From a virus: a stretch of DNA of 38,744 nucleotides. The notes beneath the pieces were generated by a model, which worked only from the letters and a program-made list of their open reading frames with translations, searched no databases and was not told the origin of the DNA. The DNA lies in IMG/VR virus record IMGVR_UViG_3300018422_000006, positions 1 to 38,744 of that record. One strand, given 5' to 3'. Shown one piece after another: positions 1-38,744 of the stretch; positions within the stretch are counted from its first letter, which is position 1; each line of letters starts with the position of its first letter. The translations under genes and the position numbers were made by a program.

Positions 1-123
1 GAGAAAAGAGAGGTAACGCATCTTTAGGTGATCTCCTCCCGGCGGAAGCTGCCGTCGTCGCTGATGTAAACCAGGAACCGTTTGAGCCCGCTGGGCTGGC
101 TGCGCATGATGAACGTGTCGACC
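1..123. repeat. Terminal redundancy, left copy
   Basis: These bases are identical to 38622-38744. The overlap falls inside coding sequence (the end of the tail gene at 24-626 and the start of the fibre gene at 38642), so the two ends join seamlessly. This is what an assembler produces from a circular or circularly permuted genome. A true short terminal repeat cannot be excluded from sequence alone. Confidence 0.95.
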
Positions 124-626
124 ACGTCGCGGCGCAGATATCGCCCGTCAGATTCCTGCTTGGTGATGTAGCTGGCCGCCGGCTGAGGCACGGTGGACCC
201 GGACAGGTTCACCGATCGGCGAATCGTCACTGGGAACATGGCCCGCAAATTGGGCAGCTTGATCTCGAGCTGGGTGGCCGCGTCGCCTGAGGAGACCATG
301 GTGTTGATCCCGGAGGTCCGAAGGTCCAGCTCGCCGGTAAACTTGTTCCCCGCGATGGTCCAGGAATTCTGGCTGGCGTGTGCTGTGCCGGCCGGGCCCA
401 CGGAGATCGTGAGCGACATGCCGGAAGGATTGATCACCTCGTAGAAGGGTGATTCGGCCCACGAAACCCGGCGCACGAGGCTAAGATCAATCGAGGGGAT
501 CTCCTCCTGATAGAGTTCTGGCAGCGAGTAAGATCCCCCCTCGCTGATCGAGCGGATCAGGGTCTTGCTCGTAACATCCAACAAAAGAATTAGCAGCGAA
601 GGCACTCGTGGCCTCGCCCCAGTCAA
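24..626 (-). CDS. Tail protein of unknown function, last before the fibre cluster
   Basis: A 200-residue protein without a signal peptide. Its N-terminal part (LLDVTSKTLIRSISEGGSY) resembles the start of phage baseplate or tail-attachment proteins, and the C-terminal part (YITKQESDGRYLRRD) looks like a short linker found in tail-fibre proteins. The start is uncertain: a TTG at 626 directly follows the TGA of the upstream gene, and a GTG at 605 has a GAGG before it. Across the circle junction its TAA is followed two bases later by the ATG of the first signal-peptide fibre protein, so it sits between the tail tip and the fibres. A role as an adaptor is inference from position. Confidence 0.75.
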   Translation of the reverse strand: MTGARPRVPSLLILLLDVTSKTLIRSISEGGSYSLPELYQEEIPSIDLSLVRRVSWAESPFYEVINPSGMSLTISVGPAGTAHASQNSWTIAGNKFTGELDLRTSGINTMVSSGDAATQLEIKLPNLRAMFPVTIRRSVNLSGSTVPQPAASYITKQESDGRYLRRDVVDTFIMRSQPSGLKRFLVYISDDGSFRREEIT

Positions 627-2738
627 TCAAGACTCAAGCTCGAGCAAATCCAGCGTGTCGTTGTACTGATACGCAAAGGCGTAACCGCCCCGGGCCCGAA
701 CCTCGCTGGTGGGGGCCCCAAGCGCACCATCCTGGGAATAGGGATCCCGGGTATTCGGCCAGCCGTCTGTGACTCGGTAAACTTTGTCAGGCGCATTAGA
801 CGCGCCGAACCAGCGGGTGACTTCCAATTCATCCAGAGCCAGCACCTGAACGTGAAAATCCGCGGGGCTGTAGTGCAACGTCTTCGCGAAGACACGGAAA
901 AGAGGAGCGTGCATCCTCTTGACCACCCCTTGTCGGCCGGCCGGAATTTCAATAGTCGCCAGGACGGTGTTTAGCGTCCCGCTCGGACTCTTGCTACCAA
1001 TCCGCACGGTGACAGAGGAGCTCAGATCAAAGGTGCCATCTGCTCGTGGACGTCGGCTGGCGGCGATGGCCCACACTACCAAAACCGTTCCTCCTCCCAC
1101 CTGGACAGCGGCTGTGGCCGAATCCAGAGGGCGAACAGGCCAGAGGTAATGGCCTCGAAATAAGGAGGAGCGCACCCGGCGGGGGTCTGATTCATCGAGT
1201 GGGGCTGATGCAAACGCCTGGGGGGCGAAAGCGCTCAGGTGTTCATCTGTTGGCGGATCCACTGGCGGAAAGGTATGGACCGTGGCCAGCCCGTTCACGG
1301 TCTGATTGGTAGCGTAGAGGATCGAGCTGAGGGCGGCGCCGGGGGCCACTCCCTGGTAGATCTCCTGATTCATAGGAGCGCCTTGCCCAGCTGTCCGATA
1401 CACTTGAGAATCTGGCATGCGCAGCTGGAAAAAACGGGTGTGGTCTTCGCCGTTGATGACCGTCCAGCCACCGCCATTCTCACCGGAGATCCCGGAAGGG
1501 GTTTCGGTAGGCGGGGCGTTGCCGGGGGTTAACGTGGTGTGAAACCGAATTCCACTCTCGCTGGGAATGAAATCCAGACCGAAGTTTGGCACGTGGCCAT
1601 GGGATGCGGCCCAGCGCCAGGGCGTATCCAGTTTCCCGTCATCCTGGATCGGCACGTTGGAAAAGCCCATCTGGGCCCTGACAGGGCCGTTGTACCCCGT
1701 CAGGTTCAGCCGAACATGGACGAAGACACTTGTGCCAAGGATTGTTCTGCGGAGCGACTCATAGGGTGGGGTGGTAATGACATCGAAGTCCCGACCTGGG
1801 CGCGCGCTGACATAAGGGTTGTCAGCTATGGGGATGGTTTGTCCCAGCATCGTTATCAGATCTACCCGCCACTGGGAACCGTCGGGCGGTGCTACGGCGC
1901 CGATCTGATCCCAACCAGTGACCCAAACCCCGTCCACCTGCTTGAAACAGATCTGCAGGTCGTGACGGATCTGTATTTGAGGAGTGGTCGCCCCTTCCGG
2001 GATTTCGGGGATCCAAAAGGAGACACCGGAATACTTGCGTGAGGGTGGGGCATCGCCACTGAGCGAACGAAAGCCTGAACCGGGCGACGAGCCAAATGGC
2101 GTGAACCAGGGGCCAGAGACGTGCATCGTCTGCTCAAGGTTATCCGTCTCCCGCGGCGCGATCGTTTTAAGGTAGTAGCGCCGGTAGATCTCGGCGCGCG
2201 TCCTGTTTATCTCGGTCAACCAGCCACGGTATGCCTCGGCTTGCTTCTGCGTCCCTGACAAAGTGCGCGCGGTGTAAAGGCCTCGGCCGGGAGGCCGGAC
2301 GATGTAGAGCCCGTCTCCAATTGCCCACCGGTTGCTTTCGGGCGCGCCCACGAGTTGTTCGTAACACCAAAGATTTGTGAGCTCGGTCCAGTTGCTGAAG
2401 TCGGTTTGAGGATGGCGGTCCAATCGCCAGGCTTTGTATTGGTGGTAGGGAGGGATAGCCGTGGCTGGCTCAATATTGACCGCAATGTCCCCCGGCCGCA
2501 TGGGTGCCGCCGCGGCGAACGTTCGGACGCCGTTTATATCCACCATCACGTTGCGTGTGCCAACGTGACCCAGCTCTGCCAGCACGGGAGCTACAACCAG
2601 AGGATCATTGGTCGGGGCGGAAAAGGTCCGGACCTTTCCCAAAAAATGGATGGGCGGCAGCCCTGCCTTGGAGTTGTTCAAATCCTCCAGGGCCTTCATC
2701 TGCTCCCAGGTGACTTCTGTGCCGCGCGTTACTGCCAC
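627..2738 (-). CDS. Large tail-tip/baseplate-region protein, function unknown
   Basis: A 703-residue protein that I do not recognise by family. The start is a GTG at 2738 with a perfect AGGAGG Shine-Dalgarno about six bases upstream; it overlaps the upstream gene end by 10 bases. The protein is rich in beta-type segments, Trp and Gly, has no signal peptide and no obvious enzyme motif. It lies downstream of the tape measure, where siphophages place distal tail, hub and tip proteins, so a structural role in the tail tip is likely. It is the largest non-fibre structural gene. Nothing visible separates hub from receptor-binding function. Confidence 0.8.
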   Translation of the reverse strand: MAVTRGTEVTWEQMKALEDLNNSKAGLPPIHFLGKVRTFSAPTNDPLVVAPVLAELGHVGTRNVMVDINGVRTFAAAAPMRPGDIAVNIEPATAIPPYHQYKAWRLDRHPQTDFSNWTELTNLWCYEQLVGAPESNRWAIGDGLYIVRPPGRGLYTARTLSGTQKQAEAYRGWLTEINRTRAEIYRRYYLKTIAPRETDNLEQTMHVSGPWFTPFGSSPGSGFRSLSGDAPPSRKYSGVSFWIPEIPEGATTPQIQIRHDLQICFKQVDGVWVTGWDQIGAVAPPDGSQWRVDLITMLGQTIPIADNPYVSARPGRDFDVITTPPYESLRRTILGTSVFVHVRLNLTGYNGPVRAQMGFSNVPIQDDGKLDTPWRWAASHGHVPNFGLDFIPSESGIRFHTTLTPGNAPPTETPSGISGENGGGWTVINGEDHTRFFQLRMPDSQVYRTAGQGAPMNQEIYQGVAPGAALSSILYATNQTVNGLATVHTFPPVDPPTDEHLSAFAPQAFASAPLDESDPRRVRSSLFRGHYLWPVRPLDSATAAVQVGGGTVLVVWAIAASRRPRADGTFDLSSSVTVRIGSKSPSGTLNTVLATIEIPAGRQGVVKRMHAPLFRVFAKTLHYSPADFHVQVLALDELEVTRWFGASNAPDKVYRVTDGWPNTRDPYSQDGALGAPTSEVRARGGYAFAYQYNDTLDLLELES

Positions 2739-8649: not shown

Positions 8650-9258
8650 TTACTTGAACTCGCAGTAGCCCGTGACGGTAATCACGTTGTTAGTCGTCGA
8701 TCCAGTAGCGGAAATCTGGATCAAGCCTGGCTTTTCGGACTGCGTGTGCCAGATCGGTTCGCCATCCCAGTTCACCAGGGTGGCTCCGACCAGGTAAGAG
8801 CCAGCGCTTGCCATCTTGTAGACCTGATCACCCGGAGCGAGGGCAAAGGACGTGGTCGCCGCAGTGAGGGCGTTGGTGATTAGGATCCCGGAGCCGTTCG
8901 TGCTCGAGAGCAGGACCCGCTGATAGGTGTTGTTAGCCACCGAACGAATCAGGAGGACGTCGAACTCGGACCATGTGGTTCCTTCGAGCTTGCACAGGAT
9001 ATTGCTGTAGCCCACGGCCAAAGCATTCGTCACGACTGCCGCTGGGCCGGTCGGGTTATAGAACGTGATCGTGCCTGCAGAGCTGTCGCTCTTAGCCAGG
9101 ATCTTTCGCACGGATCCAACCCCGAGAGCGGGCACGGCGGCGTAGGCCACGTTCGTGCTGATGGCGGTAGTACCGGAGCTGAAGGGAACCTGGGCGGCGC
9201 GGGCAGGGAGCGCGAAAGCGCACAAGATGCACGTAAGCAAGAGGGCGAATGTCTTCAT
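8650..9258 (-). CDS. Secreted-type structural protein, putative capsid decoration
   Basis: A 202-residue protein with a clear N-terminal Sec signal peptide: Lys near the start, a hydrophobic core (FALLLTCILCAFAL) and an Ala-X-Ala-type cleavage region (ARAA about residues 19-22). The mature part is Ser/Thr/Asn-rich and beta-predicted. It begins immediately after the stop of the small gene that follows the major capsid gene, which is where decoration proteins are normally encoded. A signal peptide on a protein in this position is unexpected because capsids assemble in the cytoplasm. It may be a decoration protein or a secreted accessory; sequence does not decide. Confidence 0.75.
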   Translation of the reverse strand: MKTFALLLTCILCAFALPARAAQVPFSSGTTAISTNVAYAAVPALGVGSVRKILAKSDSSAGTITFYNPTGPAAVVTNALAVGYSNILCKLEGTTWSEFDVLLIRSVANNTYQRVLLSSTNGSGILITNALTAATTSFALAPGDQVYKMASAGSYLVGATLVNWDGEPIWHTQSEKPGLIQISATGSTTNNVITVTGYCEFK

Positions 9259-9613: not shown

Positions 9614-10519
9614 TTAGACCGAGACGATTCGGTGCAGGTTGTTGGGCACGCCGGCCTTCACGCCGAACAGGGTCGCCAAAGCGATGTACCATTTGCGTTC
9701 TTTGGGAACGTAGAACATCTGGAATTGGAGCGGGAAACCAGTTTCAGGCTCGATCAGGTTCTCGACGTCGACAACATCGTTGCCCTGGTCAGGCATTGTA
9801 GGGAAGCGGGCAGCAATTAATAGCGCCTCGCGGGATCCAAAAAAGCCGTGGAGATTTTCGTCGGCAGTGGTTCCGGTTGTTGGAAAACCGTTGAATTCTG
9901 CGAGGTCGAATCCGCTCAACCGGCGTACTTGATGTTCGCGCAGGGCTTCGCTCGAGCCGGACGTGTTCACGCCCTGGATGATGTCATCGGTGGCGAGGTT
10001 GCCGTAGTAGCTGGGCTTTAGGATACCGAAGCGTTCGGAGTCGGGAACGTTCAGGTTATTAAGAGCGGTCGCGATCGCTGCGACTGTGTCGGCGGTGAAC
10101 GCCGCGGCGGCCACCGTTGTCTTGTTCGCGAACGTGCCGTTCATGATCAGTTTGACCACTTCCTTGATCACTCCTTTTCCGACCGCGTTCACGATCGAGG
10201 GAAGGAAGGTGCGACGGAGCAAATCCATCCCGCCCTTCGAGAGTTCCGCTTGGGTGAATGAGTGGGCTTTGCCCAACTCCTTATCGAGGGTGATCGTGTA
10301 AGGGGTGGACGTCGCATCGCTCGCGGTAAACCCGCCACTCACATCATCGGCTTCCAGGTCGGTCGCGACGCGAGTCGTCACGCTCTCACCGGAGCTTTTC
10401 AGATCCATGCTGAAGTCGCGAGTGAACTGTTTGAGAGCGCGTAGTTTCGGGCTGAGGACGCGAAGGCCTTCCTGCGCGATTTGGGCGATGTTAATTCCGC
10501 CGAGGCTATTTCCAGGCAT
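9614..10519 (-). CDS. Major capsid protein
   Basis: A 301-residue protein following the protease and scaffold-like genes, the canonical place for the major head subunit. It starts with an amphipathic region (NIAQIAQEGLRVLSPKLRALKQFTRDFS), then shows segments typical of HK97-fold coat proteins: a beta-rich stretch about 40-75 (SGESVTTRVATDLEADDV), a long central helix region about 85-145, and a C-terminal beta strand and Arg/Tyr-rich end (KERKWYIALATLFGVKAGV). The length is at the small end for the fold. No transmembrane segment or signal peptide is present. The fold is inferred; the role follows from gene order. Confidence 0.85.
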   Translation of the reverse strand: MPGNSLGGINIAQIAQEGLRVLSPKLRALKQFTRDFSMDLKSSGESVTTRVATDLEADDVSGGFTASDATSTPYTITLDKELGKAHSFTQAELSKGGMDLLRRTFLPSIVNAVGKGVIKEVVKLIMNGTFANKTTVAAAAFTADTVAAIATALNNLNVPDSERFGILKPSYYGNLATDDIIQGVNTSGSSEALREHQVRRLSGFDLAEFNGFPTTGTTADENLHGFFGSREALLIAARFPTMPDQGNDVVDVENLIEPETGFPLQFQMFYVPKERKWYIALATLFGVKAGVPNNLHRIVSV

Positions 10520-13570: not shown

Positions 13571-13825
13571 CTAGAGAATCTCTTGAATGGTCCGCTGGAC
13601 GCGCCGGGTCTGCCGTGCTGGAAACTCGATAGGCCATCGCCGATTGAGCTCCCGGTAGAGGAGTTCGATCCTCCGCTCCGGACGCAGATGCGTGTGACCT
13701 TGCTTTGTGGCGCTGGCGTCTCCCTCGGACCAGCCTGAAGAGCTGCTTCCGGATGCCAGATCTGCGCGGGCGGCCGCCAGATGGTCCTCAAGCTCTTGTC
13801 GTGAGACGCCGAAATATGGATTCAC
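13571..13825 (-). CDS. gpW-like head-tail joining protein
   Basis: An 84-residue protein between the terminase and portal genes, as lambda gpW is. The start region (SRQELEDHLAAARADLASGSSSSGWSEGDASATKQ) fits the gpW-type pattern of an N-terminal helix with LxxARxxLxSG, a turn, and a second helix. The C-terminal extension is Arg-rich (RIELLYRELNRRWPIEF and following) and longer than in lambda gpW (68 residues). Its ATG overlaps the TGA of the hydrolase gene. gpW-type proteins bind below the portal and stabilise packaged DNA. Confidence 0.78.
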   Translation of the reverse strand: MNPYFGVSRQELEDHLAAARADLASGSSSSGWSEGDASATKQGHTHLRPERRIELLYRELNRRWPIEFPARQTRRVQRTIQEIL

Positions 13826-14487
13826 TCTGGCCGGTAGACAGTCAAGCGATTGTCAGTCAACCGGTGCAGGCTAGCCATGAACCCCTCGAAGCGCTTGTCA
13901 GTCCAGAACTCGCTATGTCCCCAGCTCAAGTAGGGAATTACCGCGACCCTGGCCTCAACCTCGGCGGTAACGTTCTGTGGACCTTGGCGTCCCAGGTCAC
14001 CATAACCAAATCCGGTCCAGCCGATGAAACGTCGGGAAAGCTGAGCCATCTGCATCGCCTTATCGGCGGTGGCCCAGTGAACGAAAACGCGCTCGAGCCG
14101 GTAATCCTTGAGGTGCCGGTTAAGGCCGTTTGTTTCAAAGCTGGCATCGCAGGCCGGCGCAACCAGGTGCAAGGTGCGCAATCTGGTTTCGGTTCCGGGT
14201 AGGAGATCGAGCATGCGCAGCGCAATATCGGCACCGTTGCTATGTGCCACCAGGTGAATGCGCCATGGTTCCCGGTCATTCATGTAACAGAGCAGCTTGC
14301 GAGTGAACCGTTCCGCCCGCTCCTGTTGCAGCAGTCGGCGAGTGAGGGCGCCGGCGGCGTACTCAAATTTTTCTCCCCGTCCATCCTCGGTGTTGCGATG
14401 CACCCAAGTGACGGCCTGGTCCGTCCAGCCGTCTGCGGCCGAGGGCCAGCTGAGGATCCCATTGATGAAGAACCAGACTGATTTCAT
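13822..14487 (-). CDS. Alpha/beta hydrolase (esterase/lipase-like)
   Basis: A 221-residue alpha/beta-hydrolase. The nucleophile elbow is HLVAHSNGADIA with Ser83; the likely acid is Asp142 (VHWATADKAM) and the likely His is His191 (LSWGHSEFW), giving a Ser-Asp-His triad in the canonical order. The start MKSVWFFINGILSW is hydrophobic but short, with an FINGI oxyanion-type motif. It lies between a lipoprotein gene and the gpW-like joiner inside the packaging/head operon, and both neighbours overlap by ATGA. Phage hydrolases of this fold include mycobacteriophage LysB, but substrate here is unknown. It may serve lysis, membrane modification or a moron role. Confidence 0.82.
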   Translation of the reverse strand: MKSVWFFINGILSWPSAADGWTDQAVTWVHRNTEDGRGEKFEYAAGALTRRLLQQERAERFTRKLLCYMNDREPWRIHLVAHSNGADIALRMLDLLPGTETRLRTLHLVAPACDASFETNGLNRHLKDYRLERVFVHWATADKAMQMAQLSRRFIGWTGFGYGDLGRQGPQNVTAEVEARVAVIPYLSWGHSEFWTDKRFEGFMASLHRLTDNRLTVYRPE

Positions 14488-14795
14488 TTCGGTACGGCTT
14501 GTATGAGTCCAGAGGCGGCGGCGGCGCCAGCTTTGATGAGCTCCACGTCATGCCTCGTCTTTGCGTCGATTACGTCAGGATTCATTCTGAAATTGCCGTT
14601 GCTGATTACCAACTCGGTGACTACGGGATTGCCCAGCGCGTCCTTGAACTCTTTGCGGTAGCGGAACACATCCCATGAAGCATCCTTTGGCAGGCGCATC
14701 TTGAGATCGCCGGTGGATGGTTTGGCCCGGATGTAACTGTCGACGGACATACAACCGCCCAACAGGAGGGGTAAAAGGAGAGCTACAATTCTCAT
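14484..14795 (-). CDS. Small outer-membrane-type lipoprotein
   Basis: A 103-residue protein with a type II signal sequence: a Leu-rich core and a lipobox LLGGC at about residues 11-15, followed by MSVD. The mature part is charged and ends in an Ala-rich helix. Its TGA overlaps the ATG of the hydrolase. In phages small lipoproteins are often outer spanin subunits, but the usual partner inner-membrane spanin is not seen next to it. Its pairing with the hydrolase, not with a spanin, is unusual. Lipidation is inferred from the motif. Confidence 0.78.
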   Translation of the reverse strand: MRIVALLLPLLLGGCMSVDSYIRAKPSTGDLKMRLPKDASWDVFRYRKEFKDALGNPVVTELVISNGNFRMNPDVIDAKTRHDVELIKAGAAAASGLIQAVPK

Positions 14796-21547: not shown

Positions 21548-22438
21548 CTACAAGAGGAACCCTTGCAAACTTTCGGGAGCATAAGTTTTGCATGGGGAAT
21601 TTTTCAAATCTTTCGGAAAGATCGACCAGAAAACCGATGCGCGCTCTCGAGGAACCAATTCTCGATAGTGACGCAAAAGAATTCCAGCACTGTTCCCGAG
21701 CTCATGCGCGATCTTTCCCGCGTCCTGCCACTCGGCCAGCCAATAACTCGCGCACGTGTGGCGCAAGATGTCCTGCGGCCATTTGCGCAGTCGAAGGTAC
21801 TCTCGGAGCCGTCTGAGAAAGCGTCGCCGACGTTGATGCTTCATCGGCAATGCCCCTGCGAGTTCTTTGGCGTGCCGAAGCCAGGCGATGGCGCTGGGCA
21901 TCGGTTTCACGATTCGTCGTTGCCGTACCTTCGAGACGACCGCATCGATGCGAATGAACCCATTTACTAAATCGATGTCGGCCCACGTGATCTGCTCGCT
22001 CTCTTCTGGCCGCAATCCGCACAGCAGTCCAAGCACGATGATCCCAAGCGCATCAGGCCGATGGCGGCGGGTCCAAACCAGGATTCTCATGCACTGGCGC
22101 ACGGTGAAGATCTGAGGCGAGCGGTGATCGATCCGAGGTCTCTCCAGGAACTCACATGGATTTTCCTGAATCCATTTATGCCGACGGCAATGAGTGAACA
22201 GTGCAGAGAGCCTACCGATGTTACTTCGCTGGGTCGTGGGCTTCTCGCGCCTGGCAACGAACCAATTCTCGACGACGAACAGATCGATGCTTGCGACTGG
22301 ATCAGACTCACGACCACGGATGAAGAGTGTTAGATACTGCCGCAACCCGCGAATGTAATTCACTCGATAGTTTGCACGCTCTTTTGAGGCAAGAACGGAA
22401 GAGACAGCTTCGCCGAGGGTGACCATCGAAGTATGCAT
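21548..22438 (-). CDS. int: Tyrosine recombinase (integrase), first of a tandem pair
   Basis: A 296-residue recombinase. Catalytic residues are Arg143 (CGLRPEES), Lys170 (VSKVRQRR), Arg226 in ILRHTCASYWL, Asn249 in LGNS where His is usual, and Tyr258 in LLRHYRELV. The C-terminal sequence HYRELVPRERASVFWSIFP matches the ending style of many integrases from Verrucomicrobia and Planctomycetes. It starts 64 bases from the tRNA-Ala fragment at 22502-22539 and reads in the same direction, the usual arrangement of int next to attP. The HxxR histidine position appears changed (DILR). Likely the main integrase. Confidence 0.9.
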   Translation of the reverse strand: MHTSMVTLGEAVSSVLASKERANYRVNYIRGLRQYLTLFIRGRESDPVASIDLFVVENWFVARREKPTTQRSNIGRLSALFTHCRRHKWIQENPCEFLERPRIDHRSPQIFTVRQCMRILVWTRRHRPDALGIIVLGLLCGLRPEESEQITWADIDLVNGFIRIDAVVSKVRQRRIVKPMPSAIAWLRHAKELAGALPMKHQRRRRFLRRLREYLRLRKWPQDILRHTCASYWLAEWQDAGKIAHELGNSAGILLRHYRELVPRERASVFWSIFPKDLKNSPCKTYAPESLQGFLL

Positions 22439-29458: not shown

Positions 29459-30091
29459 TCAGAGCTGGTAGAGGTAGATGGCCTCCATCGTATTTTTCGC
29501 CCCGCACTTGTGGCGCGCGGTTTCAGCGTGCTGTTTGACGGTCTCTTCGGATATGCCCAGGGCTCCTGCAATTTCCTTGGCTGCATAACCCAGTTTCAGC
29601 GAGCCCAGGATGCGTCGTTCCCGGGCGGTTAAGGAGGGGAGGGGCTCAGCGAGCCGCTCGAAGATAAACCGGTAGAGCCTGCTATCCAGGTAATAGCCGC
29701 ACCCGTTAATGACCTCGTGCATCGCGGTGGCGAAATCCTCTCCCGCGTTGGCAGCGACAGGCCCCTTAAGCATGTAACCGCTGATTCCCTCGCGCAGACA
29801 ATCGCGGAGGTCTCTGGCCAGGGCCGAACCCGTCCAAATCATGATCCGCAACCGGGGCCATGTCTTTCGCAGGGTGCGGATCAGTTCCGGTCCGCACAGA
29901 GCAGGCAGGCCTAAGTCGACCAGGAGAACGTCAATTTGGTAGGGGTCGCAGTTGGCCAGGCACTGCTCGCCCGAATCGAAGATGGGGCCAGCTATGAGCT
30001 CAAGGGACGTCTTGCCAGACCCGCGGCGGCACATCTCCGCAAACATCGCCTGATCGGTCTTGTCATCGTCGATCAGCGCGAGAGTTGCCAT
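29459..30091 (-). CDS. Orphan response regulator, NarL/FixJ type
   Basis: A 210-residue two-domain protein. The receiver has the acidic pocket IDDD (Asp8-10), the phosphoacceptor Asp59 in LLVDLGLP, Thr87 in IWTGSA and Lys109 in YMLKGP. The output domain (about 152-205) is LuxR-type: LTARERRILGSLKLGYAAKEIAGALGISEETVKQHAETARHKCGA. All key residues are intact, so it should be phosphorylatable. No histidine kinase lies in the window, so it must be served by host kinases or act without phosphorylation. It lies within the late operon after the holin-like genes. This is an unusual cargo for a phage. Confidence 0.9.
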   Translation of the reverse strand: MATLALIDDDKTDQAMFAEMCRRGSGKTSLELIAGPIFDSGEQCLANCDPYQIDVLLVDLGLPALCGPELIRTLRKTWPRLRIMIWTGSALARDLRDCLREGISGYMLKGPVAANAGEDFATAMHEVINGCGYYLDSRLYRFIFERLAEPLPSLTARERRILGSLKLGYAAKEIAGALGISEETVKQHAETARHKCGAKNTMEAIYLYQL

Positions 30092-30780: not shown

Positions 30781-33700
30781 TTAGCGGCGGAAGATAAGCC
30801 GCGAAGTGCTGGAGTTGGGCCGCGCGCGCATAAGCGGGCTATTGCTAGCTTCCGGAAGTTCCGGCGTGCTCTCTTCGACGCTCGATGAGGGTTGCGATCG
30901 GTTCAGGTTGTTATCCGTCGCTTCGACGTAATAGGTGTGAGTGGAGTCAGGCGACAAGGGGAAATCTGAGTAGCTGGTGCTGGTGGTGTTCCCGATCGCG
31001 ACCCCGCTCCGGTAAATGGTGTAATGGCTGATGCCGCTGTCGTCGGTGCTCGCAGTCCAGGTCAGTCTGAGTTGTGTAGGGCTAAAGGGATTGACGACCA
31101 GGTCGGTCGGTGCGGTCGGTGGCGTCGTGTCGGCTTCCGGATCGGAACCGCCGGAGAAATATTTTTCCGCCAGGTAATTTTCGACTTGTTCGCGTTCCAG
31201 GACGGTGAGGGCGCGGAAATAAATCAGTATCTCCGCATATTTCCCGTAAAAGTAGGTGTTGAAATTATAGCCGCGTCCGATGTTCCCCACAGCCTGACAA
31301 CCGGCGATCGTCGGGAGTCGGCCGGTTTGGATCATTACCTGGGCGCCATTCACAAACAGGTAATCAACCGTGTTACTTTTCACGGCCGTGGTGATGCTCC
31401 AGGCGCCGGCGATGCTGGCGGGTCGGGTGTAAATAAAACGGTTGCCGCTCTGGGTCGTCCCGAACCTGAAAGGGATCGTAGCCTGGAACGGGGAGAGATA
31501 AATCGTTCCCCAGCTGGCTGTCTCATTCCAGAAAAGGGCCGCGCGTTCGGCTTCGCTCGCGCCAGCCGCCTGCACTTCCGTGTTCTTGGCGACCAGGAAA
31601 ATGGTCATTTCCGTTTCACCATTTACGGGGAGGTTAAAGGTCAGAAAGTCGGAGCTGCCGTTAAATTCCAGGGTCGGGTTGCCGTTCAAATCGCCCGCGC
31701 GGTAAATGGGTCGTGATCCAAGAGTTGCCTGCGACGCATGCCGGCCGTTGCCTGATTGGTCCGCCCAGCTTGAAACGACCGAAACATCAGCGGTGCTTTT
31801 GAAATAGGTGTTAGTGGTCACGCCCACGTCAGGTTTCAGCCAAAGCTCGAGGTCATCGAGCGGGAACGGAGGCGCTTCGTCGGTGGTGGCACCGGCCGAG
31901 GCGGAGGCGGTCGAGAGATTGCCGGCGGCGTCGAAGGCTTTAACGGTGTAGGTGTAAGTGGTTTCCGGGGCCAGGCCTGTGTCGGTAAATTCCACGCCTG
32001 CGGCGGTGCCGGCCAGGGTGGCGCCGCGATAAACATTGTAACCGGTCACACCAACATTATCGGAGGCGCCCAGCCATTGCAGCGATACGCTGGTTGAGGA
32101 GCGGGGCGTGGCGCTTAGTTGGCTTGGGGCGTTGGGTGCGGCTATGTCCGGAGACTGGGTGGTGATGGACTTGGAAGCTGACTGTTCGGAAACGTTCCCG
32201 GTGCCGTCGGCCGCAACCACTCTGTAAGTGTAGGTGGTGGCGGGGGTGAGGCCAGTATCGTTAAAACTTAACCCGGTCGACGTGCCTACTTCGGATCCAT
32301 TTCGCAAGATGCGGTAGTTAAAAACTCCGTTGTTATCGGTGCTGGCCGTCCAGGTGACGGTTGCCGTTGTGCCGCTCGTGGCTACTGCGTCCACGTTGCT
32401 GGGCGTCGTTGGTGCTTCGATATCCGCCTCGCCGGCTTCGAACTCGTAGGCGCCGCGGTCCCAGATTTCGCCGCCTCGGGTCGTGCCGTCAGGGTCGACA
32501 TTGAAGGGGGCGCCAAGGGCCAGGCCTGGATAAGCCGAAAGGCTGGCGTTAAGGTGGTAGTTTTTTGAGTTGGCGTTAATGAACGGGCTGGCCGTGATGA
32601 CTGATCGCTTTGTCGGATTCTCGACCCACGGGCTATCGTGCGCGCCATCTGGAAGCCAGCCGCCGGCGGATCGACAGTCAGAAAAATAATTATAGTCCTC
32701 GGTGCCATTGGGGATTAGCTGCAGCCAATAGCAGCGATAAAAGATGTTGTTGTAGATCTGGTTTCCAGAGCTTGGGTTGTAAAGCGTGATCCCGTGCATG
32801 TTTACCAGCTGCATTCCGTCGAAGGTGTTGTTGTAGAACTTGCAGTTGACCCAGGAGCCACTGCCGCCGGGGTGCTCGTTCGAGGTAATGGCTCCCATGG
32901 CCGTGACGATTCCGCGGAATACGTTCCCATAAACGAGCCAGTTTAGGTGGGGAACGTTATAGACGGTCATGCCCCCAGTGACCTTCTCCATGTTCATCAT
33001 CTCGTTGAACCTGTAGATCCAGTTGTTGCACGCCCGGTCCCGGATAACTAACCCGCTGGCGTGTTGCTCCGTGGTCGTCCACTGATCCTCGATGATCGTG
33101 TATTCGATGAGGCCATTATCCACGCCAATGAACCTGATCGGATATCCAGGTATCTCGTGGATATAGCAGTGCTGCATCGTAAATTTGTCGAAGTGCGACC
33201 AGCCGAGATTAGTGACCAGATACTTCACCTCCAATCCGGCGGACTGATGATTGACGCTGACGAACGTGGGACTATAGCGACTCGGGTAGTATCCCTCGAC
33301 ACATCGTATGACTGTGTTGGAGGCGGTCTTGAGAGTCCCGGGGATGAAGGTCTGAACGCCGTTGATGGTCTGGTATTCAGCCGTCCCGGTGATGTTGATT
33401 ATATATCCCGCCACAGTCGGCGCGACCTTGAATCCGTGCCCGCTGCGCTTGGCGCCAACGACCCCATCGAATATGTAATTCGGGCGCGTGAAGGTCAGGG
33501 TCGAGGTGAATGTCGCGGGGCCATCCCCATACGTGCTGTTCCATCCGGTGGCGCTGCCGTGGGCGGCGTCCGTTGCCTTCAAAATGCTAATCGTCTGCAT
33601 TCCTACGCCTTCATCGTCGAAGGTGTAACCGGAGTAGGTGCCGTCTGCGACATAGTAGGTTTCCCCCCGGGTCAAGGTCGAAGGAAGCGTTGTGTAGGCG

Positions 33701-33810
33701 TCGGTCCAATTGTCGCCGGAACCGGTGCCGCTGGCGCCGGCACGGACGTGCTTGGCGGCGTTGGCTGTTAGACAAACGGTGAGGAAAATCGAGACAATGA
33801 AAAACTTCAT
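30781..33810 (-). CDS. Secreted beta-helix protein with Fn3 domains, putative receptor-binding fibre
   Basis: A 1009-residue protein. The ATG at 33810 overlaps the upstream TGA and gives a Sec signal peptide (FFIVSIFLTVCLTANA). The next 430 residues look like a right-handed parallel beta-helix of the pectate-lyase-like kind (many short beta steps, Asn/Gly turns, NNIFYRCYWLQL and similar). Then come two Fn3 domains (about 465-650, with the repeated TTYTYRVVAADGTGNVSE and TTYTYTVKAFDAAGNLST), a LamG/concanavalin-like domain (about 660-860, starting LDDLELWLKPDVG), and a third Fn3 domain near the C-terminus. Polysaccharide binding or cleavage is likely. Catalytic residues are not identified. Confidence 0.82.
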   Translation of the reverse strand: MKFFIVSIFLTVCLTANAAKHVRAGASGTGSGDNWTDAYTTLPSTLTRGETYYVADGTYSGYTFDDEGVGMQTISILKATDAAHGSATGWNSTYGDGPATFTSTLTFTRPNYIFDGVVGAKRSGHGFKVAPTVAGYIINITGTAEYQTINGVQTFIPGTLKTASNTVIRCVEGYYPSRYSPTFVSVNHQSAGLEVKYLVTNLGWSHFDKFTMQHCYIHEIPGYPIRFIGVDNGLIEYTIIEDQWTTTEQHASGLVIRDRACNNWIYRFNEMMNMEKVTGGMTVYNVPHLNWLVYGNVFRGIVTAMGAITSNEHPGGSGSWVNCKFYNNTFDGMQLVNMHGITLYNPSSGNQIYNNIFYRCYWLQLIPNGTEDYNYFSDCRSAGGWLPDGAHDSPWVENPTKRSVITASPFINANSKNYHLNASLSAYPGLALGAPFNVDPDGTTRGGEIWDRGAYEFEAGEADIEAPTTPSNVDAVATSGTTATVTWTASTDNNGVFNYRILRNGSEVGTSTGLSFNDTGLTPATTYTYRVVAADGTGNVSEQSASKSITTQSPDIAAPNAPSQLSATPRSSTSVSLQWLGASDNVGVTGYNVYRGATLAGTAAGVEFTDTGLAPETTYTYTVKAFDAAGNLSTASASAGATTDEAPPFPLDDLELWLKPDVGVTTNTYFKSTADVSVVSSWADQSGNGRHASQATLGSRPIYRAGDLNGNPTLEFNGSSDFLTFNLPVNGETEMTIFLVAKNTEVQAAGASEAERAALFWNETASWGTIYLSPFQATIPFRFGTTQSGNRFIYTRPASIAGAWSITTAVKSNTVDYLFVNGAQVMIQTGRLPTIAGCQAVGNIGRGYNFNTYFYGKYAEILIYFRALTVLEREQVENYLAEKYFSGGSDPEADTTPPTAPTDLVVNPFSPTQLRLTWTASTDDSGISHYTIYRSGVAIGNTTSTSYSDFPLSPDSTHTYYVEATDNNLNRSQPSSSVEESTPELPEASNSPLMRARPNSSTSRLIFRR

Positions 33811-34493
33811 GGAATAGGTGAGGTGCTGGATTGCAGGGCATCGAACCGGCAAGCGTCGTTGTTTCCCCATTGCAGGGTTACCACGTCGGGCTGTTGTCCG
33901 CTGCCGTCCACGCCGCCGCCGTCAGGCGCGCCGGGCTTGGTGTCGGTAGTGCTGATGTAAAACTGAAAGGTGCCGTTGGATCCCGTGCCTTTGACCCAAT
34001 CCAGCCAAATCGTGTAAACCTGGCCGGTAACAATGGTTGTGTCCCCTTCGTCGTCGCCGGCGCCGTGGCGCATGACAACTTTTCCGTTGGACTGGATCTG
34101 AATAACGCAGTCATCGGCAACTCCGTTGCGAGACAGGGTAAACTTGGCATTTCCACCAGTGGCAAAGCCGGCGGAGTTAAATTTGAATTTCCAGTAGTGC
34201 TGATCCTTTAACGGGATCGAGGCCCAGGCGTATTTAAATTCCGAGGGCGCCGCGTAGGCCGATTGTGCGCCGGCAATGGGGGTCGTGGTGTTGTTCAGGT
34301 CGACGCCGCCAAAGGGGATAGTCCAGGTGTTATCGTTGGACCCTTCGAACGTTTCCTCAAAGTCGAATTCGCCTCCGCCTCCGCCGACGGCGGCCTTGGG
34401 CAGAAGTTGCGACAGGAACTCCGGACGGTACGGGGTCCTTTGAGCGAGACACGGCGAGGCCGCGACCAGGAAAAGAAGAAGAAACCTGATCAT
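33807..34493 (-). CDS. Secreted protein with a lectin/LamG-like fold
   Basis: A 228-residue protein from the ATG at 34493, which overlaps the upstream TGA. It has a signal peptide (RFLLLFLVAASPCLAQ). A Gly-rich linker (AAVGGGGGEFDFEETFEG) leads into a jelly-roll-type region with YWKFKFNSAGF, GNAKFTLSRNG and a CVIQIQSNGKVVMRHGA segment, matching concanavalin-like glycan-binding folds. It ends with a Gly/Asp-rich segment and NNDACRFDALQSS. Probably one of the fibre-associated adhesion subunits. The fold is by pattern only. Confidence 0.75.
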   Translation of the reverse strand: MIRFLLLFLVAASPCLAQRTPYRPEFLSQLLPKAAVGGGGGEFDFEETFEGSNDNTWTIPFGGVDLNNTTTPIAGAQSAYAAPSEFKYAWASIPLKDQHYWKFKFNSAGFATGGNAKFTLSRNGVADDCVIQIQSNGKVVMRHGAGDDEGDTTIVTGQVYTIWLDWVKGTGSNGTFQFYISTTDTKPGAPDGGGVDGSGQQPDVVTLQWGNNDACRFDALQSSTSPIP

Positions 34494-35956
34494 GGCCCCC
34501 ACACCGGATAATTGAAGGTGACGAAGGCCGCTGCTCCCAGCGCGTTATCCCAAGTGATTTTCCCGACCTTATTGGAAGGCATCCACACCTGGTTGATGAG
34601 AAAGTTGGTCCCGAGGATATTGGTGCGGAGTTGATCAGGCCAGCTGATCAACTTGTTAGTATTCCCAGATACAAACGTGGCGGTGATGTAGCGGCCGCCT
34701 CCGGAGAAATTCGTCCCGTGAACAATGTTCACAATGCTGGTGCTGTTTTGCTCGTCGAAGATCAGGTCGCCGGCTGCCTGGGGGGCGAAATTGAGAACGA
34801 AATTAGTGGCGGCACTCACCGCGGCGGGGCGCGACCCTGTCCACACGACATTGCTTGCGATCGTGAGCGCGCGAACGGTTAGGCCGGTGGCGCTTCCGCT
34901 GGAGCTGGCCACACGGCTTGCCGTCAGCGCATTGCTGGCGGTGTTGAGCGCAGCGGTCTGCACGGTCGCCAGGGCATTGGTAAAGAGGCTGGCAGCGGTT
35001 CGGACCGCGTTGCTGGCGGTGTTGAGCGCGGCCGTTTGGACCGTTGCCAGGTCGTTGGTCGCCTGGGCAATGTCGGAGGCGGTTACGGTCGGGCCGGCAA
35101 GGCCGCTTAAGAAGCCGACTAGTTCCTGGCCTTCGCCAATGACCGCAAAAACAAAAAGGTTTGTCCCGTTCCAGGAGTTGGTAATGCCTTCCGGGAATTC
35201 GGGGAAGTGCACGTCTTCAAAGGTGATCTCCTGCACGGTTGCAACCTTGAAATAGATGGAAGAGGCCGCGCCGTTGTAGGTGTTTCCGAAATTGGGCGAG
35301 AAGCCGGTGGTCAGGGTGATAATTTGCCGCGGGATGGCAAGGTCGATCGTGTCCGGGTCGGTGAGCTCTACCCATTCTCCTTGCAGGAATTGCCACAATT
35401 CGTTGGTGGCCCCCTGGAGTGCCGACAGGGGCGCTTTCAGGGCCAGAGCTCCACCTATGGGCTCGATGACGTCGGCCAGATTAGTCAGGATGTCCGCGTT
35501 GAGAGGTGAGTTGGTGACAAAACGAATACCGTCAAAGATCGCCACTTTGCTGGGCGTGGCATTAGGGACGATGAGCCCACGCGCCGAAAAATTCGTGGCT
35601 ACAGCGAACTCCTTGATCCCGAATCCGCTCGCGTTGGTGTAGAGCTGGGAGAGGTTAGGGAGTAAGGCGTAACTATTGTAGAGCAGGTTCGAAACAGTAT
35701 AGATGTCGTTGACCAGCTTGAGAGCCAGGGCGTTGGTCGCGTTCACGGCCACGGCGTAGACGACATTCGAAGCAGTATTGAGTTGCTCCATAGTGACTTC
35801 ACCGCCGGTTTCGATGGCATCGATGGCCTGGCGCAGAACGTTGCTGGCGCTCAGAAAATCAGCGAGCCACGCCACCTGATTGGTGCCGACTTGTAGATCC
35901 GCGCCCCGGACAGTCAGCGAGGCAAAGAGGCATAAGAGGATTAGGAGACGTTTCAT
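34490..35956 (-). CDS. Secreted fibre-like protein with internal repeats
   Basis: A 488-residue protein from the ATG at 35956 (ATGA overlap). It has a signal peptide (KRLLILLCLFASLTVRG). The mature part is Ala/Asn/Thr-rich and largely coiled or beta-fibrous. A near-exact 26-residue repeat starting LATVQTAALNTASNA occurs twice; the underlying DNA repeats at 34929-34981 and 35007-35059, 78 bases apart. The middle contains GALALKAPLSALQGATNELWQFL. This looks like a trimeric fibre shaft. The C-terminus carries a Trp/Gly-rich capping segment (GKITWDNALGAAAFVTFNYPVWGP). Confidence 0.78.
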   Translation of the reverse strand: MKRLLILLCLFASLTVRGADLQVGTNQVAWLADFLSASNVLRQAIDAIETGGEVTMEQLNTASNVVYAVAVNATNALALKLVNDIYTVSNLLYNSYALLPNLSQLYTNASGFGIKEFAVATNFSARGLIVPNATPSKVAIFDGIRFVTNSPLNADILTNLADVIEPIGGALALKAPLSALQGATNELWQFLQGEWVELTDPDTIDLAIPRQIITLTTGFSPNFGNTYNGAASSIYFKVATVQEITFEDVHFPEFPEGITNSWNGTNLFVFAVIGEGQELVGFLSGLAGPTVTASDIAQATNDLATVQTAALNTASNAVRTAASLFTNALATVQTAALNTASNALTASRVASSSGSATGLTVRALTIASNVVWTGSRPAAVSAATNFVLNFAPQAAGDLIFDEQNSTSIVNIVHGTNFSGGGRYITATFVSGNTNKLISWPDQLRTNILGTNFLINQVWMPSNKVGKITWDNALGAAAFVTFNYPVWGP

Positions 35957-36789
35957 GGTGAGAACCTGAGAAGCTGGATCCAGCCGGTGGGGCCCGTGCC
36001 GCTCTGCTTGAGATAGAGCGCTTTCGTGGTGTCCCAATAGAGCGTGGAGGGGTTGGCAGTTACCGCTCCTTCGGGAGAACCGTTCCCGCTTAGCACTTCA
36101 GATCCGCCGCCACCGCCAATCCCGCCTTCGTAGGGCGGGTATCCAGTTTTCAGAAGCTGGATCCAACCGATGGATTCTCCATCGATGTTGATCCAGAGGC
36201 TTTGAGCAGTGACGTCGTAATAAAAAACCGTTCCGGGATCAGTTCCGACTGGTGAGCCGGTGCCCATGGTGAGCAGTGATTCACTGGAGGATCCACCGCC
36301 GCCTCCGCTGGCGGTGCCGCTGATCGTGACAACGTTGCCGTTGGTGACTGCGACGATGTTGGTGCCGGCGGCGACGTAGACGAGGTTGCTCGAAAGCAGT
36401 GCGTTGATCTGCGTTTGTGTGTAGCCCGCGGTGGAGGCTGGATCGATCGTCTGGGAGAGCAGGCCTGTGGCGTTTAAAAAAGCATTGGTTTGCGGCACCA
36501 GGATCGTGAAAGGGGTCACCGTGTAAGGGCCGGGCACCTCCACGTAGTAGCTGCCATGAACCATGTTGCTCACCGTGAACGAGGCGTTGGCGTCGGTCAG
36601 AAACGACAGGCGATCACTGGAGGCAATTCGGCCGCTATCCACCCGAGGCGTGGATTTGGGCGTGATCAACACACGGCGATTGGTCAGCTCGACCGTGGTG
36701 GACGTGAAATCGTGAAAGTTAAAAAGGACGTGGGCGCCCTGGACGTTGAGAGCGATCGCCAAAAAGAAGAGAAGAGCCCAACCCTTCAT
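35953..36789 (-). CDS. Secreted fibre-like protein with Gly-rich repeat module
   Basis: A 278-residue protein from the ATG at 36789. It has a signal peptide (GWALLFFLAIALNVQG). The C-terminal half contains two copies of a module built as GxGSPxG...LYxDxT...LYxK...GWIQLL (the first ends GWIQLLKTG, the second GWIQLLRFS), a pattern familiar from phage tail-fibre ends. A Gly/Ser-rich hinge (TASGGGGGSSSES and GGIGGGGGSE) joins them. It is coupled by ATGA to the next fibre gene. Adhesive or fibre function is likely. Confidence 0.78.
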   Translation of the reverse strand: MKGWALLFFLAIALNVQGAHVLFNFHDFTSTTVELTNRRVLITPKSTPRVDSGRIASSDRLSFLTDANASFTVSNMVHGSYYVEVPGPYTVTPFTILVPQTNAFLNATGLLSQTIDPASTAGYTQTQINALLSSNLVYVAAGTNIVAVTNGNVVTISGTASGGGGGSSSESLLTMGTGSPVGTDPGTVFYYDVTAQSLWINIDGESIGWIQLLKTGYPPYEGGIGGGGGSEVLSGNGSPEGAVTANPSTLYWDTTKALYLKQSGTGPTGWIQLLRFSP

Positions 36790-36791
36790 TG

Positions 36792-38642
36792 CTAGTTGGC
36801 ACTCCGGTTGTCCTCGATCCAATCCGTTCCGTCCCAGGTCAGGCTGATCGAGTCGTATTGGCTGGCTGTCCAGGTCGATGCCAGGCGGTGGTTCCCACTT
36901 ACCGCGCCGGCGGAATCGTCAACCAGCTCAGCGCCGAACGCCCCGGTGAAATGGATTTTCAGGGTCTGCCCGGTGCTGCTGCCCGGTGTGAGAATGAATG
37001 TGCGCGAGGTGGCTGTGACACTGTCACTGGTCAGCCTGACGTAAGCCCGGTTGGTCGTGCTGACCGTCGCGTTGTCGCCACTCAACGTGACTGCGACGTT
37101 TGTCCCTAAGGCGACCTGAGGATAAACACTGTCAACATTCCAACGCGATTCGGCGGCATCATAGACCAGCGCAAAGAATCCACCGTGGACCACCGAGATG
37201 TTGTTCCCGTTGTGGAGCGAGAACCGGTTGGCCGGAGTCGGATCGATCGTGTTCTGACTGAGGGTGAGAATGTAACCGGTGTTATTCTCAACCAGGTAGG
37301 AGAGGCCGTCGCGGGCCCGGGCAACAATTCCACACAAAGCCGCGTCGCCCGTTAGGGTGCCATTGATGCGGATGTAGTGGTTCGTTCCGAAGTCGACCGC
37401 GAAATTGTTGCCGGCGCCGAGGGTGGTAAAAGAAAAGGCCGGGGTGGAAAGATCCCCTCGTAGAATATTCGTGCCCGTCCAGGTGTTGTTGGTCGCACTG
37501 GCCGCCTCCAGAATCCCAGCGATCGAGGTGGTGTGTTCGGGCATAGCGATGCGCACCTGGTTGGGGGCGGTCGTGGTCGTGCCGTAACCGATCGCAGTAG
37601 AGTTGGTGTGGCCGGAACCGACCGAGGCAAGGGCTCCTGCGGCCAGGGAGTAAGGCGCATTGGCTCCGCTCGCAGTGCCAATCGAGGTCGCGCCATCGGC
37701 CCCGTCATTGATTTCAGCGAACGCTCCGTAGGCTGCGGAGTTGCTCGCACCCGCCAGAGCAAAAGTGCCGACGGCAATTCCATTCCGACCAGTCACCACC
37801 GCATTCGCACCGACGGCCAGGCCGTTGGTTCCGTTGCCGGTTACGACGCCCCCACCGAATTGTTGTGACCCGGGGAGAGGACCTGGCGAGGAGAACGAAA
37901 GGCCGTAATTGGTGCCGTTGGTCGAAATCAGGGAGTGCAGAACCGCATTGCTGGCACTGAGCGCGGCGCCACTGATGGATCCGCCCGTCCAGGTCGATCC
38001 AGTGTGAGCCGAGTTCGCGAGCGTCGAATTAGTAACACTGATGGTTCCGTTACTGACCGCGACGTTCTGAAAATAGCTATTGGTTAGGACCTTGTTACCC
38101 ATGGTCTGGGCGGTTTGCAGGGTGGCGTATTTGGCCAGCGCCGGCGCGTTGGTCCCGATTGCATTGGTTGCTACGCCGAGATAGTCGACCAGCATCGATG
38201 CGATGTTGGTGGCGTTGGTCGAGGCCTCAGCGGTCCATGGCACCGTGACCACGAAGGTCGGAGCGGCCACCGTGTTAGTGGGGGGATAACTGACGTAACC
38301 CCAATTTCCTGTGATCCCGAGAGTTAAGTCCTCGCCCACAAAACCGACCACCGACACCACGTTGCTCGCGGACATCGAGACGATGTGCGCAAAGGACACC
38401 CGGTAACTGCCCAGGTGAATGGAGAGATTGGTCGCGGTCCACGGAACGGAATTGGTGATGAGGATCAGGCTCGAGGGCGAGGCGCTGACATCGTTGGTGA
38501 AGGTGTAGGCAGTGCCGTTGATCTCCGCCTGGTCGCCGATGGCCGGCACATTGGTGACATTGAAATACCCGGTGACCAGGTTCGCGGCCTGCAGTCGCGG
38601 CAGAAGCAGGGTCAGGAGAATGAGAAAAGAGAGGTAACGCAT
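36792..38642 (-). CDS. Secreted fibre-like protein with YadA-type head repeats
   Basis: A 616-residue protein. It starts with a signal peptide (RYLSFLILLTLLLPRLQA). The N-terminal third is Thr/Asn-rich. Residues about 260-360 carry Hep_Hag/YadA-like repeats (GLAVGANAVVTGRNGIAVG, AAYGAFAEINDG, TAIGYGTTTTAPNQVRIAM, SIAGILEAA), the beta-roll found in trimeric autotransporter heads and in phage fibres. The C-terminus has a beta-rich segment with FILTPGSSTGQTLKIHF and ends WDGTDWIEDNRSAN. Its ATG follows the previous stop by two bases across the circle junction. There is no C-terminal YadA anchor, so it is not a complete autotransporter. Confidence 0.82.
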   Translation of the reverse strand: MRYLSFLILLTLLLPRLQAANLVTGYFNVTNVPAIGDQAEINGTAYTFTNDVSASPSSLILITNSVPWTATNLSIHLGSYRVSFAHIVSMSASNVVSVVGFVGEDLTLGITGNWGYVSYPPTNTVAAPTFVVTVPWTAEASTNATNIASMLVDYLGVATNAIGTNAPALAKYATLQTAQTMGNKVLTNSYFQNVAVSNGTISVTNSTLANSAHTGSTWTGGSISGAALSASNAVLHSLISTNGTNYGLSFSSPGPLPGSQQFGGGVVTGNGTNGLAVGANAVVTGRNGIAVGTFALAGASNSAAYGAFAEINDGADGATSIGTASGANAPYSLAAGALASVGSGHTNSTAIGYGTTTTAPNQVRIAMPEHTTSIAGILEAASATNNTWTGTNILRGDLSTPAFSFTTLGAGNNFAVDFGTNHYIRINGTLTGDAALCGIVARARDGLSYLVENNTGYILTLSQNTIDPTPANRFSLHNGNNISVVHGGFFALVYDAAESRWNVDSVYPQVALGTNVAVTLSGDNATVSTTNRAYVRLTSDSVTATSRTFILTPGSSTGQTLKIHFTGAFGAELVDDSAGAVSGNHRLASTWTASQYDSISLTWDGTDWIEDNRSAN

Positions 38643-38744
38643 CTTTAGGTGATCTCCTCCCGGCGGAAGCTGCCGTCGTCGCTGATGTAAACCAGGAACC
38701 GTTTGAGCCCGCTGGGCTGGCTGCGCATGATGAACGTGTCGACC
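38622..38744. repeat. Terminal redundancy, right copy
   Basis: Exact copy of 1-123. It contains the start of the YadA-type fibre gene and, from 38645 onward, the 3' end of the gene at 24-626, reached through the circle join. It should be trimmed when counting the genome. Confidence 0.95.
38645..38744 (-). CDS. Repeated 3' end of the tail gene at 24-626 (partial, window edge)
   Basis: The last 100 bases duplicate 24-123 and carry only the final 33 or so codons (MRSQPSGLKRFLVYISDDGSF region) plus the stop of the tail gene. It is a consequence of the circular overlap and not a second gene. Confidence 0.9.
   Translation of the reverse strand, partial: VDTFIMRSQPSGLKRFLVYISDDGSFRREEIT

Follow-up and report, generated by a model that had tools for sequence, protein, structure and literature searches.

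Predicted Sec signal peptides on a run of five phage tail-region proteins and on fibre-knob proteins of unrelated phages

The sequence analysed here, IMGVR_UViG_3300018422_000006, positions 1–38,744 (the whole stretch, called the window below), contains a run of five open reading frames (ORFs), g1–g5, all present at the coordinates that the original prediction had assigned to them (Table 1). The junction between the upstream gene and g1 (TAA-AG-ATG, a 2-base gap) lies within a 123-bp direct terminal repeat and is therefore visible a second time, at the opposite contig end. A second 2-base gap separates g1 from g2 (TAG-CA-ATG), and ATGA overlaps are found at g2/g3, g3/g4 and g4/g5. These junctions, three overlaps and two short gaps, set the starts of all five genes; the original claim had named three overlaps and one gap, with the fifth start following the previous stop across a circle junction. 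A start-codon artefact is ruled out by these fixed junctions together with orthologues that also bear a signal peptide (SP).

Table 1. Features of the window referred to in the text
Feature	Position	Strand	Description
g1	36792..38642	(-)	616 aa: SP, conserved N-domain, YadA-head-like repeats, fibre-type domain
Predicted SP of g1	38586..38642	(-)	MRYLSFLILLTLLLPRLQA; best cut between MRYLSFLILLTLLLPRLQA and A
g2	35953..36789	(-)	278 aa: SP, N-domain, C-terminal fibre motif
Predicted SP of g2	36736..36789	(-)	best cut between MKGWALLFFLAIALNVQG and A
g3	34490..35956	(-)	488 aa: SP, Asn/Thr/Ala-rich repetitive protein, no family match
Predicted SP of g3	35903..35956	(-)	best cut between MKRLLILLCLFASLTVRG and A
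g4	33807..34493	(-)	228 aa: SP, no family match
Predicted SP of g4	34443..34493	(-)	best cut between MIRFLLLFLVAASPCLA and Q
g5	30781..33810	(-)	1009 aa: SP, beta-helix-like, three Fn3 and LamG-like domains
Predicted SP of g5	33757..33810	(-)	best cut between MKFFIVSIFLTVCLTANA and A
Sixth SP protein	8650..9258	(-)	202 aa; located two genes past that of the major capsid protein; SP retained in L006
Predicted SP of 8650–9258	9196..9258	(-)	MKTFALLLTCILCAFALPARA
Small predicted lipoprotein	14484..14795	(-)	lipobox, MRIVALLLPLLLGGC; between terminase and portal
SP-less fibre-like protein	24..605	(-)	immediately upstream of g1; YITKQESDGRYLRR motif at its end; 38% identity with L006 counterpart
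SP-less protein at tail-tip position	627..2738	(-)	703 aa, no family match
Major capsid protein	9614..10519	(-)	anchor for finding relatives

Signal peptides were called with a rule-based scorer. The prediction of a Sec SP on each gene of the run held throughout: 5/5 have a charged start, a core of 11–14 residues and a −3/−1 site. In g1–g5 as well as in the protein at 8650–9258 we find a positive n-region, a short uncharged hydrophobic core, small residues at −3 and −1 and no membrane segment nearby, so that all six are predicted Sec signal-peptide proteins, with export and cleavage likewise predicted. Applied as a test to stretches of E. coli and lambda, the scorer recovered the known exported proteins (8/8) and gave only two false positives, both N-terminal membrane anchors (PdeC and Rz). 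Random sequences with the composition of the proteome were flagged in 0.25% of cases, and shuffled N-termini of g1–g5 in 0.15–0.9% (versus 5/5 for the real ones); these controls rule out chance occurrence from low complexity. Among 45 other candidate ORFs, picked by eye, the predicted lipoprotein at 14484–14795 alone was flagged at the strict cut-off, and a broader control on related phage contigs gave 11 flagged genes out of 1128. All core virion proteins identified in the window (portal, capsid, tape measure, tail tip) are without SP. Predicted export signals extend beyond the five-gene run to 8650–9258 (SP) and 14484–14795 (lipobox), both overlooked in the first observation; a lipoprotein is also found at the latter position in the relative L006.

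Fibre or adhesion modules had been described along the run, and this stands for part of it. Fn3, LamG and beta-helix are all held by g5, with the beta-helix match below Pfam's cut-off; the YadA repeat is below the cut-off in g1 and above it in the L006 homologue; Pfam searches gave no match for g2, g3 and g4. One domain of g1 recurs in L091, in an SP-less gene that occupies the tail-fibre position (9e-9), and the C-terminal fibre motif of g2 matches phrog_16355 (1e-4) as well as a 91-aa SP-less protein of L068, while for g3 and g4 no homology to virion proteins was found. AlphaFold models of 8650–9258 and g2 (pLDDT 32 and 35) were too low in confidence for a structure search. Cysteines are scarce in most SP proteins, so that disulfide formation is not an obvious reason for export.

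Relatives were reached via an alignment of the capsid protein, which is 67% identical in the closest one, L006. Direct searches found no relative of g1 in phages, of the terminase in IMG/VR, or of 627–2738 in phages, IMG/VR and genomes; scans with alignments of g2 and of 8650–9258 returned the L006 contig alone, and a portal alignment returned this contig and an additional short one that matches just as closely. Homologues of g1 with SP occur in L006 (34% identity over 529 aa) and, for the conserved N-domain, in L095, and the N-domain of g2 is 45% identical to that of an L006 SP protein; no orthologues of g3, g4 or g5 were found. The L006 homologues of g1, g2 and 8650–9258 all keep an SP, with 16–33% identity within the SP versus 43–49% in the initial stretch of the mature protein. 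The SPs are selected features: they are kept, even though they change more rapidly in sequence than what follows the cut. The N-terminal domains right after the SP are conserved and the C-termini divergent, a pattern also seen in fibres whose N-terminus is the docking end. The mature part of 8650–9258 resembles an SP-less protein of prophage G344, encoded immediately behind the capsid gene; this match, not recovered by profile search, begins just past the predicted cut and reaches 47 bits, versus at most 31.6 in 1933 shuffles.

As a unit of five genes, the run is not conserved. At the run position L006 has three SP genes, with further ones scattered among its head genes, and other Verrucomicrobiota prophages have two to four SP-bearing proteins in a row. 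Portal relatives were present in 22 of 388 Verrucomicrobiota genomes; among those read, at least two non-lipoprotein SP genes were found in the structural module of G306, G344, G232, G383 and G147, and fewer than two in e.g. G156, G127, G144, G245 and G180. A profile of the g1 N-domain gave only weak, stop-broken matches in the 388 genomes. Portal matches in a Bacteroidota control (3 of 395 genomes) were too few for comparison. Several SP genes adjoin the capsid gene, where head surface proteins are expected. The nearest isolated phage found, Verrucomicrobia phage P8625, has terminase, portal, capsid and tape-measure relatives, but its fibre genes gp22–gp24 are without a convincing SP (gp22 and gp24 unflagged; gp23 at 3.46, below the cut-off).

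Outside Verrucomicrobiota, a fibre-knob domain follows an SP in 43 of the 80 contigs that share it, none of these 43 having been retrieved through an SP-based search pattern. Examples are BcepC6B gp19 and Xanthomonas phage PBR31 orf035, whose knob matches the solved virion tail fibre 8vbx gp47 (5e-18). Both resemble the run in combining an SP with a fibre shaft and knob, between a fibre/spike gene and the holin; they differ in being single copies in podophages of Pseudomonadota, instead of a run of five, and have no sequence match to g1–g5. Tail fibres with the 8vbx gp47 knob (for example Pectobacterium phage PPWS1 gp49, Enterobacter phage Mulvp2) share the knob family of BcepC6B gp19, PBR31 orf035 and G344 14779, but have another N-terminus and no SP. 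SP-less homologues of SP proteins exist. The N-terminal motifs of SP and SP-less knob proteins differ, so that docking of the SP forms is only putative. No relatives of BcepC6B gp19 were found in a plasmid collection. Further SPs precede virion-type domains in L070 (phrog_17312 tail protein, 1e-11), L095 (phrog_697, 2.5e-20), G383 (phrog_2889, 1e-87) and G344 (phrog_11393 tail fiber, 3e-15). Homology to virion proteins is stronger in such other members of the class than in g1 and g2. Unrelated phages commonly carry SP-bearing fibre proteins. Exported fibre-type proteins in the phage tail region, as originally proposed, are well backed by orthologue conservation, by domains common to virion fibres and by independent recurrence, but they are specific neither to the five-gene run nor to this phage.

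The genes g1–g5 lie in a contiguous minus-strand structural module with coupled starts and stops, their GC3 (0.69–0.73) is the same as that of the neighbouring structural genes, and promoter and terminator scans gave nothing above chance level. The shared GC3, the coupling and the lack of promoter-like sites above chance suggest late co-expression. Recent capture of host genes is ruled out, since the composition is not different; neither the foreign composition nor the promoter and terminator signals of a moron (lysogenic-conversion) gene were found. The SP proteins are, as far as their sequences tell, late-operon, virion-type accessory proteins.

Our preferred reading, to which we assign a probability of about 0.4, is that g1–g5 and 8650–9258 are genuine, late-made Sec SP proteins of a recurrent class of accessory surface-type phage proteins (fibre, knob, lectin, decoration), in which the cytoplasmic N-terminus would be replaced or extended by an SP, and which would be exported and then join the particles at lysis. 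Produced alongside the virion proteins, they would be taken across the inner membrane by Sec and, with the SP cut off, fold in the periplasm, away from the particles assembling in the cytoplasm; holin/endolysin lysis would then mix the compartments and the exported proteins could join finished particles. SP quality, orthologue conservation, the shared operon, virion-domain homology and SP-less homologues are supported by the sequences; export, cleavage and late joining we infer. With their SPs, g1–g5 depart from virion fibre and decoration proteins that assemble in the cytoplasm, and no tailed phage is known to add exported proteins after lysis. In a wider and more speculative form, many tailed phages of Gram-negatives might send virion surface parts (tail fibres, head fibres, decoration proteins) via Sec into the periplasm and complete the particle only at lysis, a two-compartment assembly that would be undescribed for tailed phages.

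Three roles had been suggested at first: maturation outside the cytoplasm, surface display, or another function of the leader. We rank late maturation and joining first and an action in the envelope second. Exported fibre proteins might, with lesser probability, not be virion parts and instead work in the infected cell's envelope, where they would attach to surface glycans or to the receptor that the phage itself uses, blocking superinfection and stopping progeny from sticking to debris, like T5 Llp or Cor. These are possible analogues as phage-encoded exported proteins acting on the receptor; however, known receptor-masking proteins of this type are small and lack fibre domains. An envelope role would fit the knob- and lectin-type domains without the N-termini found on SP-less fibres, and a frequent gene order in which the SP fibre gene comes right after an SP-less tail fibre/spike gene, with lysis genes or further virion genes behind it; this order suggests that the SP protein is additional to an attached fibre. 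It would not predict SP genes beside the capsid gene, nor the SP-less homologue there. Also in favour of an envelope role, the lambda gene of the exported protein Lom lies between J and the side-tail-fibre gene (PMC12309495). Lom, Bor and Rz1 are phage-encoded exported proteins too, but none is fibre-like: Lom forms an outer-membrane beta-barrel and the other two are lipoproteins. The lambda J and side-tail-fibre proteins, unlike g1–g5, have no SP according to our scorer.

Display by lysogens as adhesins (lysogenic conversion) seems improbable to us: the phage has integrase genes, and Fn3, LamG and YadA-like modules are also known from cell-surface proteins, but the genes are translation-coupled to late structural genes of the same GC3, with promoter signals at chance, and g1, for all its SP and weak head repeats, has no anchor domain of YadA-type trimeric autotransporters by Pfam. 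Even less credit is due to the view that the hydrophobic N-terminus is a structural or membrane-interacting segment retained in a virion protein. In its favour, the scorer's false positives are all single N-terminal anchors; against it, the cores are short and followed by a −3/−1 pattern in every case, the sequence drifts while its make-up stays, and SP-less homologues (the G344 protein; L242) start at the mature N-terminus.

Tailed-phage assembly is taught as entirely cytoplasmic, and fibre proteins determine host range. In open papers we found no published account of SPs on tailed-phage fibres; the passages on PBR31 that we considered name a signal peptide for gp40 and do not discuss orf035. 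An undescribed phage strategy, as first suggested, is compatible with this, but it would not be confined to the five-gene run or to this phage. The observation itself is real and recurrent, and the pairing of fibre proteins with export signals points to a widespread, apparently undescribed use outside the cytoplasm. Routine annotation as tail fiber or structural protein can overlook where a protein goes. The recurrence of export signals on fibre-type proteins would mean that phages either can finish their virion surfaces outside the cytoplasm or place receptor-binding domains in the host envelope.

The genes g1 to g5 of the original prediction are all present in the window, with starts fixed by stop/start junctions read in the sequence, and the Sec-type N-termini ascribed to them hold in 5/5 cases (positive start, uncharged core of 11–14 residues, -3/-1 site). 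Signal peptides (SPs) are predicted ones throughout, called with a rule-based scorer written for this analysis, which detected 8/8 known exported proteins (E. coli stretch and lambda) and made two wrong calls, both N-terminal anchors (PdeC and Rz). Its false-positive rate was 0.25% for random sequences of this composition and 0.15–0.9% for shuffled N-termini of g1–g5; in related contigs 11 of 1128 genes were flagged, several of which look like further SP cases. The run of five consecutive SP genes is not due to chance. Two further exported-looking proteins, a capsid-adjacent SP protein and a lipoprotein, lie among the structural genes.

Features of the window and of its closest relative, contig L006
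Feature	Position	Strand	Remark
g1	36792-38642	-	SP
g2	35953-36789	-	SP; after tail genes
g3	34490-35956	-	SP
g4	33807-34493	-	SP
g5	30781-33810	-	SP
Capsid-adjacent SP protein	8650-9258	-	near capsid gene
Lipoprotein	14484-14795		between terminase and portal
Possible alpha/beta hydrolase	13822-14487	-	between lipoprotein and portal; weak DUF900 match, below cut-off
Tyrosine integrases, two adjacent	20520-21518, 21548-22438	-	one locus in L006, similar to both
Complete response regulator (receiver + LuxR-type HTH), phage-encoded	29459-30091	-	downstream of g5
SP-bearing proline-rich protein (L087)	L006, 32428-32943	-	directly upstream of portal gene

A 123-bp direct terminal repeat (1-123 = 38622-38744, in a record of 38,744 bases) indicates that the map closes into a circle of 38,621 bp, whose break falls at the g1 start. 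Genes for terminase, portal, protease, capsid and tape measure identify the window as DNA of a tailed phage. Of the isolated phages, Verrucomicrobia phage P8625 is the nearest found (terminase 23%, portal 28%, capsid 31%, tape measure 27%). The host is likely a member of the Verrucomicrobiota, because a relative of the capsid protein is present in an Opitutae MAG. Since g1–g5 have the GC3 of the structural genes and translation-coupled starts, and a promoter scan of the SP genes gave no signal above chance, these genes are probably expressed late, with the structural genes.

The relative nearest to the window is IMGVR_UViG_3300026016_000021 (L006), whose capsid protein is 67% identical. There the homologues of g1 (34%), g2 and the capsid-adjacent protein (48%) all bear SPs, and the g1 N-domain with its SP is found again in a third contig, L095. 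Between window and L006 the SP segments are 16–33% identical and the mature parts directly after them 43–49%; that composition is kept while sequence is free is as expected for signal peptides. L006 carries additional SP genes too, and its terminase and portal genes likewise have a lipoprotein gene between them. Its g2-type gene (L086, 4058-4786) lies inside the head-tail connector block, a difference from the window that points to shuffling of genes or modules between sites. No orthologue of g3, g4 or g5 was found.

A portal relative is found in 22 of 388 Verrucomicrobiota genomes. Among their prophages, G306 has three SP proteins between capsid and tape-measure genes, G344 three at the tail module end, G232 (same lineage as G344) the same three plus one near the capsid gene, and G383 and G147 two each; other prophages from these genomes lack such proteins, which makes the distribution patchy. 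Domains of phage type are found in the SP proteins: in G344 14779 a match to phrog_11393 (tail fiber, 3e-15), in G383 16115 one to phrog_2889 (1e-87) and in L070 8601, encoded on a viral contig, one to phrog_17312 (tail protein, 1e-11). G383 16115 has six homologues in phages that infect other hosts; none of the six carries an SP, and one is annotated as antireceptor. The gene at L125 16115-17878, in a Verrucomicrobiota prophage, encodes an SP protein related to DGR-linked antireceptors (VHML, ACA1).

Two phages from outside the phylum were reached through the C-terminal knob domain of G344 14779: Burkholderia phage BcepC6B, by its gp19 (annotated as tail fiber), and Xanthomonas phage PBR31, by its orf035 (annotated as structural protein). 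Each of the two proteins has an SP and is encoded between the fibre/spike gene and the holin. An IMG/VR scan found knob proteins in 80 metagenomic contigs, 43 with SP, none of which came via the SP-based search pattern; counted as distinct N-termini, 40 of 66 have an SP. Motifs recurring after the SP are ATLNPIQLLNPAGSTSGQ (18 proteins with SP, 2 without) and QFVPGQ-LTAAELN and SYPSPT, both seen behind SPs only, two mis-called starts set aside. Knob proteins without SP mostly have other N-terminal domains. Where neighbouring genes match a family, the upstream gene is often one for a tail spike or tail fiber, and the downstream gene often encodes an endolysin or a virion protein. Since the knob has a match of solved structure, the tail fibre gp47 of 8vbx (5e-18), the domain that follows the SP is one that occurs in a virion.

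That this may be an undescribed strategy, as originally proposed, is compatible with the literature searched: no description of an SP on a tailed-phage fibre protein was found in open full text. Exported phage proteins amid tail genes are already known from Lom (PMC12309495), and known fibres share the knob of G344 14779, BcepC6B gp19 and PBR31 orf035 and differ in being without SP.

SPs are confined to accessory, surface-type proteins, and the identified core virion proteins have none. The mature part of the capsid-adjacent protein aligns (30%), from just past the predicted cut, with an SP-less G344 protein encoded directly 3' of the capsid gene (47 bits; maximum 31.6 in 1933 shuffles), and a stop codon lies four codons 5' of the G344 start. 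This match, not recovered by a profile search, gives moderate evidence for an SP-less homologue.

Lysogen surface display appears improbable, and an uncleaved structural N-terminal segment slightly more so. Both rank below action of the exported proteins in the envelope, e.g. receptor masking, a rather unlikely second choice with which the position of knob proteins downstream of an attached fibre, whose N-terminus they do not have, is in keeping. Ranked first, at a tentative probability of about 0.4, is that the SP proteins would be exported and then join particles at lysis, because the capsid-adjacent SP genes and the SP-less homologue favour a virion role.
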